A stretch of 43,142 nucleotides of DNA from a virus. A program made the position numbers and the translations under genes. The notes under the pieces are model-generated. The model was not told the DNA's origin. It was given only the letters and a program-made list of their open reading frames with translations, and ran no database searches. Shown here piece by piece: positions 11,196 to 26,406 of the stretch (position 1 is the stretch's first letter; every line of letters starts with the position of its first letter). The stretch covers positions 1 through 43,142 of IMG/VR virus record IMGVR_UViG_3300042288_001793, one strand, 5' to 3'.

Positions 11196-11714
11196 ATGAA
11201 CAATAATAATTATGGAATGTCTCAAACACGAGACAAATGTTATGGCGTAGCCGCTTGTCTTACCTATTGGGCTTTCAAGTGCCGTGACAGAAAACGTAGT
11301 CCCGCAATGGGTACTAAAACCTGGACTTACTTGGAATCAAGTATTAGAAACTCTGCTGAAATATCAACTAATTTAGAAGATTATTTGCAGCGACTTTGTG
11401 ATAAACTTTGTTCACAATTACGCCCAATCGAGTTAACTAAAATAATTCAGCCAACACAACGGATACTAAGAGTAAATGAAGATGTAACGGAAATAAAAGA
11501 ACTTCCCGTTGACCAAAATCTTGTATTTATGGGATGGTTGGATTTAATTGCTGACATTCAACCACACGGATTTAGTGAGTGGGATGTACTTGAACTACTG
11601 AGAACCAAAGCAGGGATTATTCAAGTAATTTGTAGATTACGGTTTGAGGAAGACCGCAGTTTAGGGTTAGATGAACCAGAAGAATTTATAGAAGTTGAGA
11701 ACATTGAGGTATAA
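11196..11714 (+). CDS. putative small subunit (Cas11-like) of the type IV-B complex
   Basis: A 172-residue, predominantly helical protein with no recognisable catalytic motif. Position is the main argument: type IV-B loci carry a cas11 small-subunit gene with csf1, csf2 and csf3, and this gene is the right size and precedes csf2 with only one small gene between. Its N-terminal half (KCYGVAACLTYWAFKCRDRK) and charged C-terminus (DEPEEFIEVENIEV) fit a helical bundle protein. Cas11 sequences diverge too fast to be sure by eye. An alternative is an unrelated phage protein. Confidence 0.4.
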   Translation: MNNNNYGMSQTRDKCYGVAACLTYWAFKCRDRKRSPAMGTKTWTYLESSIRNSAEISTNLEDYLQRLCDKLCSQLRPIELTKIIQPTQRILRVNEDVTEIKELPVDQNLVFMGWLDLIADIQPHGFSEWDVLELLRTKAGIIQVICRLRFEEDRSLGLDEPEEFIEVENIEV

Positions 11715-11718
11715 AAGT

Positions 11719-12030
11719 ATGGTAGATTTTTCATTTCTTTTAAATCTTTCAGAGACTCAGTTGAAAGCGTTGTTTTACAAAAACAATCTTCAACTCATAG
11801 AAACAGAATTTAAAAATAACAGCTATTGGCTGCTCAGAAACGGAAAAAGGATAGGAGAAGTTCTTTGGGATAATGGGTATTGGATATCAAATATTCAATG
11901 GATAAAATTGAATTTTGACAATATATATGGTGCTGCCCTCCTGGAGCTAATGCAGCAGCCAATACAAGGCATTTACTCCGAGGAATACTCTGCAAAAATA
12001 ATCAAGGAAGTTGAGGTGACAAATGTTTGA
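11719..12030 (+). CDS. unknown 103-aa protein inside the type IV-B operon
   Basis: Start chosen at ATG 11719 because GAGGT lies nine bases before it; an earlier in-frame TTG (11695) would overlap the previous gene. The protein has an N-terminal helix (FLLNLSETQLKALFYKN) and a beta-rich middle with paired tryptophans (SYWLLRNGKRIGEVLWDNGYW). I do not know the family. Its stop lies inside csf2 (eight-base overlap), so it is translated together with the effector genes and may be part of the system. Confidence 0.6.
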   Translation: MVDFSFLLNLSETQLKALFYKNNLQLIETEFKNNSYWLLRNGKRIGEVLWDNGYWISNIQWIKLNFDNIYGAALLELMQQPIQGIYSEEYSAKIIKEVEVTNV

Positions 12031-13153
12031 TAATTACGATGTTTTTGACCGTGAAAGATTGACTTTACACTGTGTAATCACAACACAAACGCCGTTGTCA
12101 CATATTGGCGAGGTGTCAGGCAATGTTAGTAATTTAAAAACTTTAAAATTACTGGATTTTGAAGGTAATCCTAGAAGTGTTTTCACCTATTCTGGAAATG
12201 CCTTGAGAAATGGTTTGTTACGGCGTGTAGGTGTAGCTGCGGCGTTAACTGAATTAGGATTACAGGTAAATCCTGATACACACCATACAATGTTTGCAGG
12301 TGGCAGGATTGATGCCGGTACAGCTTCAGATATGGAACTTGATAAAAAGATCCGGGTTCTAATGCCTTGGTTGTCGGTCTTAGGAACTGCTAAACCCGCC
12401 AAGGTTTTTGGCTCTAAAGATGCTCAAATGGTGCAAGGCAGAATTAATGTAGGATCTGCTTATTTGTCTTGTTACGAGTCAGCAGAATACATTTACAATC
12501 AAGTTCCGGCGATACTACCACCGGAAGTACAACCCGCTATTCAGAAGCTAATTGAGGCTAAAAATAAATTATCTTCAGACCCATTCACTCCCACAAAAAC
12601 TGAAGATTTGGATAATTGGAATCAAGCAAAAAATGACTACTTGCCTTTGATTAGAAAAGTAATGAAAACATGGTCTGAATATTTAACGGTTGATCAAACT
12701 ACCCGCAGAGATGCAACTTTAGATCCTAATTTGATTAAATTTCTGCCAACAGAAGTACAGGCGCAACTCAAGGGAGATGGTGCAGCTAAAGAGAAAAAAT
12801 CGGATCAAATGATTGCTTCCGATAGATTAATTATGCCAGGAGCAAAACTATACTCAAGATGGGATTTGAACTGTACGCAAGTTGAGCAGGGATGGATTTT
12901 TGATACTTTATTGAAGTTTGCACAATTCCCGTATTTAGGTGGTAAAGGCAATCGCGGAAATGGTCGAGTCAGCATGAATTTCTGGTTTAGTTCTGAGTCA
13001 GAACGTGGTTTATTGTGGAGTTCTGAAAGTGGTGTAGAGAGCGATAGATTTAACCTGGCACACGCTAAATATAGAGAATATATCAATCAATATCAACAGT
13101 TTTTGAGTGAGGCGAAAACATCAACTGAGTTAAGGAGTTTGTTGGGTGGATAA
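12023..13153 (+). CDS. csf2: type IV CRISPR-associated Csf2 (Cas7-like backbone)
   Basis: Cas7 subunits polymerise along the guide RNA and form the effector backbone. The 376-residue protein starts with a RAMP strand (LTLHCVITTQTPLSHIGE), continues with FTYSGNALRNGLLRRV (about 54-69, the typical region before the thumb) and has a late block SDRLIMPGAKLYSRWDL (about 266-282). It ends with the glycine-rich loop GGKGNRGNGRV (306-316). Order and length are those of Csf2. It overlaps both neighbours by eight bases. No Cas6-like gene follows, as is usual for subtype IV-B. Confidence 0.85.
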   Translation: MFDNYDVFDRERLTLHCVITTQTPLSHIGEVSGNVSNLKTLKLLDFEGNPRSVFTYSGNALRNGLLRRVGVAAALTELGLQVNPDTHHTMFAGGRIDAGTASDMELDKKIRVLMPWLSVLGTAKPAKVFGSKDAQMVQGRINVGSAYLSCYESAEYIYNQVPAILPPEVQPAIQKLIEAKNKLSSDPFTPTKTEDLDNWNQAKNDYLPLIRKVMKTWSEYLTVDQTTRRDATLDPNLIKFLPTEVQAQLKGDGAAKEKKSDQMIASDRLIMPGAKLYSRWDLNCTQVEQGWIFDTLLKFAQFPYLGGKGNRGNGRVSMNFWFSSESERGLLWSSESGVESDRFNLAHAKYREYINQYQQFLSEAKTSTELRSLLGG

Positions 13154-13835
13154 CTTAAAAATTACAGCACATTTGGCGACATCTTTGGGTGCTTATGACA
13201 ACTGGAGTCCATCGCTAGAAGGGATTTTAGTTTATAGGCTTTTAGAACAAAATAATCTACTTTCACCTAATCCCACGCCAGATCAAGTAGCAGAAACCAA
13301 AGAGTTTATTGAGCAGAATTTACCACTAAAACAAGGTGTCATTAAGTCAGAGAAATATTGGTGCGTGAGTTCACCTTGCTATGTTTTGCAGGGTGAAGCT
13401 ACAGACAAATATAGAAAACGATGGGATAATCACGAAAACAATTTAGACTGGGGTAAGCGTAAGCCCAAATTTTTAACAGGTGAAGGGGCGGAAAAATCCT
13501 ATGATTTACCGCTTTACACAAGGTTAATTAATTCTATTTCTTGGTTTGCTGTAGGCGATAAAACGGCAATCAAAAATCTTTTGTCGTCTGTTACTCACAT
13601 TCAGAAAAAGCGTAGTTACGGCAATGGTGAAGTCAGGGAATGGGAAATAGGGGTGATTTACGATAATTACCATCTGTGGCGTGATAGTAAATTAATGCGT
13701 CCTATCCCTGTTAGATTACTTGATCAAAAAATAGATAATCCTCAGATGGTTTGGGGGTGGAGAAGTCCCGCTTGGTTAGCGGCAAACAAGGAGTTGTGCT
13801 ATATGCCAAAGGATAACGTGATTTATGCTAAGTAA
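13146..13835 (+). CDS. csf3: type IV CRISPR-associated Csf3 (Cas5-like)
   Basis: Csf3 is the Cas5-like subunit that caps the 5' end of the guide. The 229 residues begin MDNLKITAHLATSLGAYDNW followed by SLEGILVYRLL, the family's N-terminal strand-helix pattern. The later block IQKKRSYGNGEVREWEIGV (about 157-175) is the glycine-rich loop of this family. The start is GTG at 13146, eight bases inside the csf2 end; the stop lies inside the cysH-like gene (11-base overlap). The tight coupling suggests balanced synthesis of complex subunits. Confidence 0.8.
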   Translation: MDNLKITAHLATSLGAYDNWSPSLEGILVYRLLEQNNLLSPNPTPDQVAETKEFIEQNLPLKQGVIKSEKYWCVSSPCYVLQGEATDKYRKRWDNHENNLDWGKRKPKFLTGEGAEKSYDLPLYTRLINSISWFAVGDKTAIKNLLSSVTHIQKKRSYGNGEVREWEIGVIYDNYHLWRDSKLMRPIPVRLLDQKIDNPQMVWGWRSPAWLAANKELCYMPKDNVIYAK

Positions 13836-14571
13836 CGGATCTGGCGTTCAATATCCCTGGTTAAAAAAGAAAATAACCAGGGCAAAAGACTTAATTAAAA
13901 CATGGTTAGAGCAATGCGATTATCAGGTTTACGCTAGTGTGTCAGGTGGTAAAGATAGCCTAGTGATGTCACATTTGATTAGGCAAGTTTACTCAGATTG
14001 TCCATTGGTCTGGGTAAATCAGGGAATGTTTGCTGAATGGGATGATTGCATTGAATTATTAGAGTTTTTGAAAACTCAGGGGTGGAATATTATTGAACTT
14101 TGTCCAGTGCGTGATTTATGGCATTTGTATCTGGATTATGGCGTTCCCCTTGAAGGGACGATGGACACAAAAGCCGATAAATTGATAAATCAAAAACTGA
14201 TTTATGACCCGCTTAATGAATACCAAGAATTGAATAATGTTAAGGGTTATGCGTGGGGAATACGTAAGCAAGAAAGCAAAAACCGCGCATTTTATCTCAA
14301 CAAATATGGTGAAGTGCATACGCTCAAAAACGGGTTGATTTGTTGCTCACCCGTGGCATTTTGGACTACTCAAAATATCTGGGAATATATTGATATGCAC
14401 TCGTTAAAATACCCTGCTATTTATGATGTTGATAGAATGACAGTTAGGAATGGATGCCCAATCGGTACAACAGGTGCTAACTGGGGAAGATTAGCAGAGT
14501 TAAGAAAGCATTACCCAGATATTTATAATCAATTTGCTACTAAATTTCCACAGGTATCAACCTATGTCTAA
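13825..14571 (+). CDS. cysH: CysH-like PP-loop protein (type IV-B accessory)
   Basis: A PAPS-reductase-family protein of 248 residues. It has the PP-loop SVSGGKDSLVMSHL (about 39-52), an early VWVNQG block, GIRKQESKNRAFYLN (about 145) and a C-terminal part with ICCSPVAFWTTQNIWEYID. CysH-like genes are the diagnostic companion of subtype IV-B loci; their role there is unknown. Being embedded between csf3 and csf1, rather than next to sulfate assimilation genes, argues against ordinary sulfur metabolism. It overlaps csf3 by 11 and csf1 by 8 bases. Confidence 0.88.
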   Translation: MLSNGSGVQYPWLKKKITRAKDLIKTWLEQCDYQVYASVSGGKDSLVMSHLIRQVYSDCPLVWVNQGMFAEWDDCIELLEFLKTQGWNIIELCPVRDLWHLYLDYGVPLEGTMDTKADKLINQKLIYDPLNEYQELNNVKGYAWGIRKQESKNRAFYLNKYGEVHTLKNGLICCSPVAFWTTQNIWEYIDMHSLKYPAIYDVDRMTVRNGCPIGTTGANWGRLAELRKHYPDIYNQFATKFPQVSTYV

Positions 14572-15316
14572 TTGCTACCTTTGCGCTAAACCCGGATCTA
14601 ATGCTTTGGAATTATCCAATACATTCACGATGCACTCGTCAGCTAAATGTCCAGAGTCTAAAGTGCTATGCGATCGCTGTCACTCTACAATTTCCGGTAA
14701 TCAAAAGCAGCTTTGGTACTGGAATGAAGGTAAAAATAAATGGTCAAAGCTGTGGGGACGTTCTTTGTCCAGGGTTTATCAGGGTGATAAGCTAATTGCG
14801 CCTGTCGTTGAAGGTGAATATACAGAAGGCAAGGATACTTTTTCAATAGTTAAAAACTTGCTGACTAGGGTGGGAATTAGGCAATACTTGTTAAATCCAC
14901 CTGAACCGCCTTTTACTATAGCCATAGCAGAATCGGGGCAAAAACATATTATCCCTTGGGCGTTAGAAGGTCAAAACAGAGATTTATTCCCTGTGCAATT
15001 TGAACTCGACACTATTTATATTGACAATAGATTTAGAGAATATTTGGAAATTTACGAACAATTGATGGGATTAGGTTTTAGTAAGTCTGAAATTGATTCT
15101 GGAGATTATCGAAGCGATCGCCTAATGAAAGTTTTTGATCAATATGGGGAACTTGAGGAACGGATAGCGCGTATTAGGGGAACGAGATTAATGCAATTAA
15201 TTAGCTATGTTGCCCAAGTGCAAGACGCGCCGCCAATTACGGAAGTAGTGCAAATTCCCGTAATGCCTGTTTCACCAAAAACACTTGAGAAGCCACTGCA
15301 ATTATCTTTGTTTTAG
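14564..15316 (+). CDS. csf1: type IV CRISPR-associated Csf1 (Cas8-like), with C-terminal clamp-type motif
   Basis: Csf1 is the zinc-finger-bearing large-subunit-like protein of type IV. The start is ATG 14564, overlapping the cysH stop by eight bases; a longer frame upstream is less likely. The 250 residues open with MSNCYLC and CDRCHSTISG, giving C4, C7, C36 and C39, the expected four-cysteine finger. The middle contains PFTIAIAESGQKH, and a helical part follows. The protein ends exactly in PLQLSLF, which matches the bacterial sliding-clamp binding pentapeptide QL[SD]LF. The operon ends here or continues into the structural gene 18 bases downstream; I see no terminator between. Confidence 0.82.
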   Translation: MSNCYLCAKPGSNALELSNTFTMHSSAKCPESKVLCDRCHSTISGNQKQLWYWNEGKNKWSKLWGRSLSRVYQGDKLIAPVVEGEYTEGKDTFSIVKNLLTRVGIRQYLLNPPEPPFTIAIAESGQKHIIPWALEGQNRDLFPVQFELDTIYIDNRFREYLEIYEQLMGLGFSKSEIDSGDYRSDRLMKVFDQYGELEERIARIRGTRLMQLISYVAQVQDAPPITEVVQIPVMPVSPKTLEKPLQLSLF

Positions 15317-23230: not shown

Positions 23231-25099
23231 ATGAAAACTATTAAAATCAAGGTCAAACTTCTTGCTGAACAGGCGCAATCATGCGATCGCTACCTAGAAG
23301 AATTGACATGGCTATGGAATCAGGTATTGGCTAATCAATTGCATAACCATTGCATCACCTGGTACAACTGGGCTGGTAAGTTGAGCGCAGATTTAGCTAA
23401 GGCGACGGAAAAGTTAGAGAAGCTAAAACCGGAACAACAGCAGCTTGTTAGGAACTACTACCGCAGCAAAGACAAGCCAAAACTCAACAAAAAAGAACAG
23501 GAATTAGTTGCCAAATTTGATATATTTTCCCGGTGGTTGCCGTTTGACTTAGAAAATATTATTCCCGTACCTTTACGAGTTGGCAATAGCGGCTATGAAG
23601 GACTATCGTGTCAGATTGCTACAGGCGGAAGTTACTGGAAACGGGACGATAATTTTAATATTCCCATTAAAACCAAAAAGGGGATTATTCACGTCAAAGG
23701 GTCTAAATTAGTTAAGGGTGATTACCCCTGGAAACGAATACAAATAATGCCACATCAATATAAAACTTTCCCCAGTGGTAAGTTTGAGGGGAGGGAATTA
23801 ATAGATTTAATGAAGTTTGATAATTTGAACGGGTTAAACGGGTTAAGAGCGATGCAAAATCTACCTGATTTATCCGTTTCCTCGCACTACGTCGGAGGCT
23901 TGTTAGGGTTTTTCAAACAGTCATGGTTAGCATTTTTAGACCCCAAAAGGATAAACAGCAGGAAGCCAAAATTCAAAAAAGATGCTGATAAGATTAGCAC
24001 TTTATTTAATAAGCAATGTCCACCAAATAAGATAGACATAAAGAATAATTCAGTTGAAATTACTGGATTTGGCAATTTAATCGTTACTGATAGAAGTTGG
24101 GGGGAAAGACTGAACCTAGATAGCAGTCTTCCTCGGGCGTATATGCTAACCAAAAAAGCATCTGGCTACTATATCAATATTGTCCTTGCTCACCCATTGC
24201 AAGAAGAAAAAGCGGTTTTAACAAAGAAATTACCCAAGGTTAAAAAGGAGCTTGGAGAAGACAGCCAAGAGTACGAAGATATTAAGTCTAAAATCAAGTT
24301 TATTGAACAGCAAATCAAGGATTCGTTAATCGTAGTGGGAAAGAATTTAAGTGTAGGGATTGACCCTGGAGTACAGGCTATTGTGGCGACAGATCACGGG
24401 GCGTTATTCCTCCCAAATCTAAGCAGGGAAAGAGTGTCAATCCATATAGAGGAACTACAATCAAGGCTTGATAACCTTGAATTAATTAATGATAAAAAGT
24501 GGAAAGATTCAGGAAGCAAAGGTGCTAGACCTAAGACAAAAAACGAGATTAAGATACAAGATAAAATTACCAGATTACATGAACGTGGGGCTAATTCTTC
24601 TAATGCCTTTAATCATAAAATGTCAACTAGATTAAGTAGGACTTATGAGCATATAGCCTGGGAAGATACCCAACTAACTAATCTACTGAAGCAAACAGAA
24701 GCTAAAGCATTGCCTGAAGGGGTGGGATATGCTCACAACGGCGCGTCTGCTAAACGGGGTTTAAATTGGATTATGAGACAAAGATGCTTGGGTGATTTAA
24801 AAACTAAAACTAAGCAAAAAGTTGAGAACAGAGGCGGTAGTTTTCATGAACCACCTGCTAACTACAGTTCTCAACTATGCCATTGTTGTCATCAGAAAGG
24901 TGAGCGATTATCACAGTATGAGTTTGTCTGCAAAAACTCTGAATGTGAGTTATTTGAACAGGTGCAACAAGCTGACACCAATGCGGCTAGGAATCACAAA
25001 CATAATAGTAGTTTTGAACTAGGAGAAGTCAAATATCACAACACTAGATTGGTTTACCAAAAACCCAAGAGATTTAAAAAGAAACGCTTGACAAAGTAG
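23231..25099 (+). CDS. cas12: compact Cas12-like (type V-U class) RuvC nuclease
   Basis: A 622-residue effector, start at ATG 23231 (a TTG 15 bases upstream is in frame). RuvC-I is SVGIDPGVQAIVATD with D378, RuvC-II is HIAWEDTQLTNLL with E478, RuvC-III is QQADTNAARN with D582. All three acidic residues are intact. A zinc ribbon with C550, C553, C567 and C572 lies between II and III as in TnpB and small Cas12 proteins. The N-terminus (KTIKIKVKLLAEQAQ, TWLWNQVLANQ) is TnpB-like. It is much longer than TnpB (~400) and much shorter than Cas12a (~1200). The gene is followed by a tracrRNA gene and a repeat array, so it is a CRISPR effector and not a transposon nuclease. No tnsB, tnsC or tniQ is near, so it is not a CAST. 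Among named groups the cyanobacterial V-U2 (c2c8) is a possible match; unproven. Confidence 0.85.
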   Translation: MKTIKIKVKLLAEQAQSCDRYLEELTWLWNQVLANQLHNHCITWYNWAGKLSADLAKATEKLEKLKPEQQQLVRNYYRSKDKPKLNKKEQELVAKFDIFSRWLPFDLENIIPVPLRVGNSGYEGLSCQIATGGSYWKRDDNFNIPIKTKKGIIHVKGSKLVKGDYPWKRIQIMPHQYKTFPSGKFEGRELIDLMKFDNLNGLNGLRAMQNLPDLSVSSHYVGGLLGFFKQSWLAFLDPKRINSRKPKFKKDADKISTLFNKQCPPNKIDIKNNSVEITGFGNLIVTDRSWGERLNLDSSLPRAYMLTKKASGYYINIVLAHPLQEEKAVLTKKLPKVKKELGEDSQEYEDIKSKIKFIEQQIKDSLIVVGKNLSVGIDPGVQAIVATDHGALFLPNLSRERVSIHIEELQSRLDNLELINDKKWKDSGSKGARPKTKNEIKIQDKITRLHERGANSSNAFNHKMSTRLSRTYEHIAWEDTQLTNLLKQTEAKALPEGVGYAHNGASAKRGLNWIMRQRCLGDLKTKTKQKVENRGGSFHEPPANYSSQLCHCCHQKGERLSQYEFVCKNSECELFEQVQQADTNAARNHKHNSSFELGEVKYHNTRLVYQKPKRFKKKRLTK

Positions 25100-25122: not shown

Positions 25123-25266
25123 ACCGCAGTTTGGACGGGATGACTGGTTCTGTCAGTCTATGACTTGATGATTTTACGATCAAAAAGTAAGGGAGATGGT
25201 GACTACTCCCATAGACCAGCCGGAACTATGGCTGGCAATCCTCAGAAGGGATTAATCATTTTGCAA
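25123..25266 (+). ncRNA. tracrRNA with three hairpins and an anti-repeat
   Basis: After the promoter come hairpin GACTG/CAGTC (25142-25158), hairpin GGGAG/CTCCC (25191-25210) and hairpin CCAGCC/GGCTGG (25216-25235). Immediately after the third stem, 25236-25266 is the reverse complement of the CRISPR repeat: CAATCC, then TCAGAAGGGATTA, then TCAT, then TGCAA match, in total 28 of 32 aligned positions with one gap. Two of the mismatches become G-U pairs in RNA. The orientation is the one needed to pair with crRNA from the plus strand. The 3' end is not marked by a terminator; the RNA may extend toward the array. Confidence 0.82.
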
Positions 25267-25302
25267 TCATCGAAGCAGCGTGGCTAAAACAAACCCGCGC
25301 GC

Positions 25303-25393: not shown

Positions 25394-26406
25394 CTTGCAG
25401 GATGACTAATCCCTTCTGAGGGATTGAAACTCAGGTTGCCGCACTTGCAGGATGACTAATCCCTTCTGAGGGATTGAAATGAGTGATTAATTTTTTGAGT
25501 TGACGCCTTGCAGGATGACTAATCCCTTCTGAGGGATTGAAACTTCCCTCTACTGTTGTTAATGGAAGTTGAGTAGATCTTGCAGGATGACTAATCCCTT
25601 CTGGGGGATTGAAACGCGCGTGTCATGAAACCTTTTCCCTGTCTTGATTTGAACTTGCAGGATGACTAATCCCTTCTGAGGGATTGAAACTCTGGTTCGA
25701 TGCTTAGGTTATGCCCCTCACAGTTAGCTTGCAGGATGACTAATCCCTTCCGAGGGATTGAAACAGAACAGGCGCGGGGTGATGCTGGCAAATCCGATCC
25801 GCTTGCAGGATGACTAATCCCTTCTGAGGGATTGAAACGCGCTAATTCTTTCACTGCAAATACTCCTATTGATCTTGCAGGATGACTAATCCCTTCTGAG
25901 GGATTGAAACAAACAGCAGAAACAGTACAGCAATTAAAGAGTGAGCTTGCAGGATGACTAATCCCTTCTGAGAGATTGAAACTTTGTCTGAAGGCGAGAT
26001 GAAAATATTCTAATGGAACTTGCAGGATGACTAATCCCTTCTGAGGGATTGAAACGATACTGAGATTGTGGTTCAGGTTGCCGCACTTGCAGGATGACTA
26101 ATCCCTTCTGAGGGATTGAAACCAATCTGTGATGGCTAAAATGCCACATATTAGCCCTTGCAGGATGACTAATCCCTTCTGAGGGATTGAAACCGGCGTG
26201 TGAGGGGCATAACCTCGGCATTGACCCCTTGCAGGATGACTAATCCCTTCTGAGGGATTGAAACAGCAAGTAATAAAGATTGCTTAATTGCTTCTATCCT
26301 TGCAGGATGACTAATCCCTTCTGAGGGATTGAAACTTCCTGTTTAACTTCCCTGGTTTCTCGCCACTCTCTTGCAGGATGACTAATCCCTTCTGAGGGAT
26401 TGAAAC
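25394..26406 (+). CRISPR. CRISPR array, 15 repeats of 37 bp and 14 spacers
   Basis: The repeat begins CTTGCAGGATGACTAATCCC and ends TTCTGAGGGATTGAAAC; the inner AATCCCT and AGGGATT can form a hairpin, and the GAAAC end is typical before spacers. Repeat starts: 25394, 25444, 25507, 25579, 25654, 25728, 25802, 25874, 25946, 26019, 26086, 26157, 26228, 26299, 26370. Repeats 2, 4, 6 and 9 each differ by one base. Spacer lengths in order: 13, 26, 35, 38, 37, 37, 35, 35, 36, 30, 34, 34, 34, 34. Spacer 1 is the last 13 bases of spacer 10. Spacers 5 and 12 share 17 bases in opposite orientation. Transcription is inferred rightward from tracrRNA pairing. No cas1, cas2 or cas6 is in the window. Confidence 0.98.

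Follow-up and report, generated by a model that had tools for sequence, protein, structure and literature searches.

Structure of the CRISPR locus

The window, that is, the whole 43,142-nucleotide (nt) stretch of DNA analysed here (positions 1 to 43,142 of the IMG/VR virus record IMGVR_UViG_3300042288_001793), carries an array of clustered regularly interspaced short palindromic repeats (CRISPR) at 25394..26406 on the plus strand. The array is composed of 15 repeats of 37 nt (CTTGCAGGATGACTAATCCCTTCTGAGGGATTGAAAC) and 14 spacers, and a gene for a putative Cas12p / V-U2 effector lies ahead of it (23231..25099, plus strand). Genes for the large terminase, an Erf-like annealing protein (ERF), a ParB-like protein, a sigma factor, a helicase and a tape-measure protein are carried by the record, and the tape-measure open reading frame (ORF) of 4,220 aa starts where the array ends. 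The window belongs to the genome of a tailed cyanophage, and the host group is the filamentous cyanobacteria. An earlier reading of the same sequence (hereafter the original prediction) drew attention to two spacers of the array; the array is phage-borne and not that of a cyanobacterium, because the window is a virus record with phage genes.

Judged from its sequence, the effector is a member of Cas12p / V-U2, with homology over its whole length, RuvC and TNB domains, and an adjoining array and anti-repeat. It was identical to the Cas12p of PDB entry 9jfs at 483 of 612 residues (78.9%), and the intact RuvC D-E-D motifs GIDPG, AWED and QADTNAA were common to both proteins. PADLOC assigned the effector to Cas12u2 (E 4.6e-56), and its TNB zinc ribbon was recognised by the Pfam model Cas12f1-like_TNB (4e-8). 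Effectors of the related phages L005–L007 were 93–99% identical to that of the window. Type V-K, which comprises the Cas12k CRISPR-associated transposons and was defined by Cas12k with tnsB/tnsC/tniQ and a degenerate RuvC, was ruled out: the RuvC motifs were intact, and no Tn7-like transposition protein occurred among the annotated window proteins.

The anti-repeat of a trans-activating CRISPR RNA (tracrRNA) was located between the effector gene and the array, at approximately 25232..25267 on the plus strand. Its duplex with the repeat was calculated at -44.5 kcal/mol, compared with a mean of -21.7 for the shuffled leader. L007 has a diverged repeat, with which the anti-repeat of L007 itself, in the corresponding position, forms a duplex of -34.0, as expected of a co-evolving tracrRNA.

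Inverted match between spacers 5 and 12

Spacer 5 (37 nt, 25691..25727, plus strand) contains the 17-mer AGGTTATGCCCCTCACA at 25706..25722 (plus strand), and spacer 12 (34 nt, 26194..26227, plus strand) contains its exact reverse complement at 26199..26215 (minus strand). The two positions of the 17-mer, given by the original prediction, were confirmed, as was the further match of ATGC past a two-base difference, thereby giving an ungapped inverted repeat of 29 nt at 86%. The longest word common to the spacers in either orientation was 6–13 nt in 1,000 shuffled arrays, and 17 nt was never reached. The 17-mer was found nowhere in IMG/VR beyond a near-identical copy of the same phage (L003/L008), which rules out a widespread repeat.

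The two spacers agree in codon register, with 26 of 34 bases identical. In a shared reading frame, spacer 12 encodes (P)ACEGHNLGID(P) and spacer 5, on its reverse complement, (P)NCEGHNLSIEP; the common peptide is [N/A]CEGHNL[S/G]I[E/D]. Five of the eight differences fall at third codon positions, and three are silent when the preceding Pro codon is counted. The original prediction that the array holds two guides against overlapping, opposite-strand protospacers is therefore supported, with the differences in codon register pointing to related variants of one locus.

The inverted match might instead have been made inside the array, if part of a spacer was duplicated in inverted orientation; it would then be uninformative on the target. 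Recombination is indeed visible here. Spacer 1 (13 nt, TCAGGTTGCCGCA, 25431..25443, plus strand) is a leader remnant, the same as the end of the second leader of L007, which terminates in TTTCAGGTTGCCGCA immediately 5′ of a repeat. Spacer 10 (26056..26085, plus strand) has this remnant as its 3′ half, marking the probable seam of two fused arrays. Against such an origin stand the eight codon-register differences and the continuation of each spacer past the shared part into further conserved primase codons (P before, P or PE after), and we regard it as highly improbable. From its layout, the window array looks like a fusion of two formerly separate arrays, with spacer 5 in the left part and spacer 12 in the right. 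Segments of separate origin fit independent acquisition, and the two spacers were probably acquired separately. In L007, two tandem arrays with different repeats occupy 12229-13312, with the second leader between them and one effector ahead of both.

A plasmid primase as the probable target

By its sequence, the encoded peptide corresponds to CPxCEGHNLxIxP, the zinc-binding motif of a primase-helicase (D5_N/DUF5906) that is carried by plasmids of Nostocales, pANA02 among them. Spacer 5 is antisense to the codons of this motif and spacer 12 is sense to those of another allele. When 257 Gb of genomes were searched with a degenerate pattern of the motif, just two sites were found. The first is on a contig of a cyanobacterial metagenome-assembled genome (L010), where the primase zinc knuckle CPVCEGHNLGID is followed by a superfamily 3 (SF3) helicase ORF with DUF5906. 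The other, from Akkermansiaceae (L009), lies in a frame antisense to another gene and was taken as chance. The alternative spacer frame GSM[L/P]RLCPS, judged by eye, was abandoned after the CEGHNL frame led to the primase.

Homologues of the primase were found on 35 plasmid records, nearly all of them cyanobacterial. All window spacers were compared by blastn with 72,556 plasmids (PLSDB), and two records were returned; the better was spacer 12 on pANA02 of Anabaena sp. 90 (28 nt, 92.9%, E 0.6). On this complete plasmid the site covers the same codons in the gene of WP_015081705.1 (D5_N + DUF5906), at CPVCEGHNLSID. The best matches of spacer 5 were to the same primase site, including loci that were retrieved by a protein query independent of the spacer. 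The closest sites were mismatched at 6 of 34 bases for spacer 12 and at 10 of 37 for spacer 5, the latter on two Nostocaceae contigs, one of which encodes CPACEGHNLSIVPETG at the site and also carries a MobV relaxase. Since the closest sites differ to this extent, the true target plasmids appear to be unsequenced, and the targets of spacers 5 and 12 are probably two alleles of one replication gene on such plasmids.

Other spacers and related phages

Spacer 3 (25544..25578, plus strand) matched a 7.7-kb Nostocaceae contig at 34 of 35 bases, and an AAA_25 (RepA-like) gene lies 32 nt downstream of the site. The same contig was matched (31/34) by a spacer of cyanophage vB_AphaS-CL131 (hereafter CL131), which carries a phage-borne V-U2 CRISPR (PMC6293099). 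The spacers of L005–L007 differ from those of the window, and four spacers of related phages matched the complete plasmid pANA03: one within the DUF3987 gene (34/37 with a single 3-nt gap), one across the ribosome-binding region of that gene (30/35), and two in other genes (33/34 and 33/35). Genes of the plasmid replication protein CyRepA1 were matched by CL131 spacer 9 and by an L007 spacer. Replication-gene targets thus recur across the spacers, namely, DUF5906, DUF3987, CyRepA1 and AAA_25.

In 218 genomes, the true spacers, run as two queries, gave 64 matches (13 + 51; best E 3.6e-9), many of which represent one CL131 spacer on homologous genes, compared with four for the reversed-spacer control (best 0.0067). 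The spacers of four Cas12p arrays and CL131 gave no convincing match among 50,697 phage records, and concatenated spacers reached chance level only. Plasmids were therefore matched more than phages or reversed controls. Repeated sampling of one target, as originally predicted, is upheld; the sampled target is a plasmid replication gene and not a cyanophage, no convincing phage target having been found for any spacer tested.

These searches bear on a rival reading, in which the spacers protect against competing phages, or against phage satellites, with a related primase; the system would then serve competition between viruses and the plasmid matches would reflect a shared gene family. Viral mini-arrays mostly target related viruses (PMC11656645). 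P4-type primase-helicases also occur in phage satellites, and remote similarity to the DUF5906 region was found in streptococcal satellites. Besides the lack of a convincing match among the phage records, however, the zinc-motif pattern occurred in no other IMG/VR contig, relatives of the pANA02 primase were encoded on no IMG/VR contig at the search sensitivity applied, and the best matches were to complete plasmids, pANA02 and pANA03. Competition between viruses is accordingly considered an unlikely explanation of the array.

Sequence flanking the protospacers

A T-rich protospacer adjacent motif (PAM) on both sides was suggested in the original prediction, but the flank is not simply T-rich. 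With spacers 5 and 12 set aside, seven Cas12p protospacers, picked by match quality, had the 5′ flanks GTT, GTT, GTT, GTC, GTT, GTA and ATA. The sequence 5′-GTN was thus present in six of seven, and the chance of at least six of seven is approximately 3e-7 under base composition. At the sites homologous to spacer 5 the flank was GTT, GTC or GTA in most cases, and for spacer 12 it was GTC at pANA02 and GCC at L010. If the protospacer of spacer 12 is flanked by the conserved Cys codon and then a C (TGYC), that codon forces GYC, and TTN is excluded. A 5′-GTN PAM is therefore compatible with both spacers, on both strands.

A putative anti-plasmid function of the array

We consider it probable that the locus is a phage-borne Cas12p (V-U2) CRISPR directed against plasmids, with spacers 5 and 12 derived from two alleles of a Nostocales plasmid primase-helicase replication gene. 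This reading is built on the array, the anti-repeat, the intact effector motifs, the codon-level identity of the target, the plasmid matches of other spacers and the common PAM; interference against plasmids is predicted from these features. The array would be transcribed during infection, and the CRISPR RNA (crRNA) would pair with the tracrRNA encoded between effector gene and array. Guided by spacers 5 and 12, which cover the same conserved zinc-motif codons (zinc knuckle of the D5_N, DUF5906 protein), one per strand, Cas12p would bind 5′-GTN-flanked sites, probably with host thioredoxin, given that PDB entries 9jfs and 9jg3 include a thioredoxin TrxA chain besides Cas12p. Cutting or blocking of plasmid replication genes would then cause resident plasmids to be lost or silenced. 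The phage may benefit from less competition for replication resources, from the removal of plasmid-borne defences, or from both.

Several observations weigh against this reading. Exact protospacers for spacers 5 and 12 were not found in the databases searched, which lowers the certainty for these two spacers and not for spacer 3, and the evidence for spacer 5 leans in part on the 17 bases that it has in common with spacer 12. Thirteen spacers exceed 20 nt in length, and only three of them have an assigned target. Cas1 and Cas2 were absent among the window proteins scanned, and the array repeat was absent from the 218 Nostocaceae genomes searched. No plasmid was matched by the spacers of L120, a less closely related Cas12p phage, or by those of L120–L123 together with a few from V-U2 phages, which gave only three weak genome matches (best E 0.0046).

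Within the anti-plasmid explanation, the target plasmids may matter for their anti-phage defences, so that the array would act in counter-defence, much as the CRISPR of phage ICP1 acts against PLE, and not as a means of replicative competition. A complete type I-D CRISPR-Cas operon on pANA02 and a UvrD region resembling GajB-like helicases in a protein encoded by pANA03 agree with this sub-case, which does not exclude the other. The spacers, however, match replication and hypothetical genes and not defence genes; only two complete target plasmids were inspected, and plasmids often carry defence genes. A counter-defence role is possible but somewhat doubtful. Only tentatively, and with a little more confidence than for that sub-case, we propose that this cyanophage lineage keeps its Cas12p CRISPR mainly to destroy resident plasmids through conserved replication-gene codons, often with several guides, both strands and several alleles per site; defences carried by these plasmids, such as type I-D CRISPR-Cas, would be removed in the process. 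The operon of pANA02 (L059/L060), the best plasmid match of spacer 12, is accompanied by genes of a diversity-generating retroelement.

Comparison with known systems

The effector and phage-borne V-U2 systems are already known (PMC6293099; PDB 9jfs), as are plasmid-directed CRISPR systems on plasmids (PMC11656645). The Cas12p structure entries (9jfs and 9jg3, solved with TrxA), whose protein is 79% identical to the window effector over 612 aa with the same RuvC motifs, carry no array or targets, whereas the window has both an array and candidate targets. CL131 likewise has a phage-borne, single V-U2 effector adjoining an array; no tracrRNA was seen by its authors, who suggested that the system regulates genes (PMC6293099). 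Unlike in CL131, the window effector (only 34% identical) is accompanied by a different repeat, and the flank is GTN instead of TTA/CTA. One CL131 spacer was reported to match a 'DNA primase pseudogene' (PMC6293099); judging by the match of CL131 spacer 9, this is probably a CyRepA1 plasmid replication gene. Plasmid-borne type IV-A and V-M (Cas12m) systems have guides against essential plasmid genes, in competition between elements (PMC11656645). The kind of target is the same here, whereas the carrier is a phage, the RuvC triad is intact and the families differ. The literature searched, which covered few subscription papers, contained no account of a phage-borne array with guides against the replication genes of plasmids.

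Phage ICP1 carries a type I-F CRISPR together with adaptation genes of its own and targets a satellite. Unlike ICP1, the window system is class 2 and has plasmid targets; both are phage-encoded CRISPR systems aimed at a resident mobile element (see also PMC6293099). Phage CRISPR systems are known that act against satellites, host defences or rival viruses. An anti-plasmid function, if true, would open the conflict between phages and plasmids to observation and testing, give Cas12p a natural role and a likely PAM, and reinterpret the 'primase pseudogene' match of CL131. Overlapping spacers that differ in codon register can also expose a protein motif, thereby allowing a target to be read where an exact protospacer is lacking.

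Additional observations

Redundancy like that of the window array was seen in array b of L120 (IMGVR_UViG_3300042378_000447), where a core of TCCACCGGCACTAAATC is common to three spacers, one of them on the opposite strand. The three overlapping spacers encode variants of H[VI]P[KR]LDLVPVE, whose target was searched for and not found. Among L120 and L129–L132, the second repeat of L120 is almost identical to that of L130 and L132, which are more distant V-U2 phages, and this similarity suggests array exchange between the Cas12p and the more distant V-U2 effector lineages. The phage genome of the window also contains, at 11196-15316, a type IV CRISPR module resembling IV-B (Cas11-like, csf2, csf3, CysH-like PAPS reductase and csf1); IV-B-like modules are typical of plasmids and here lie inside a phage genome.
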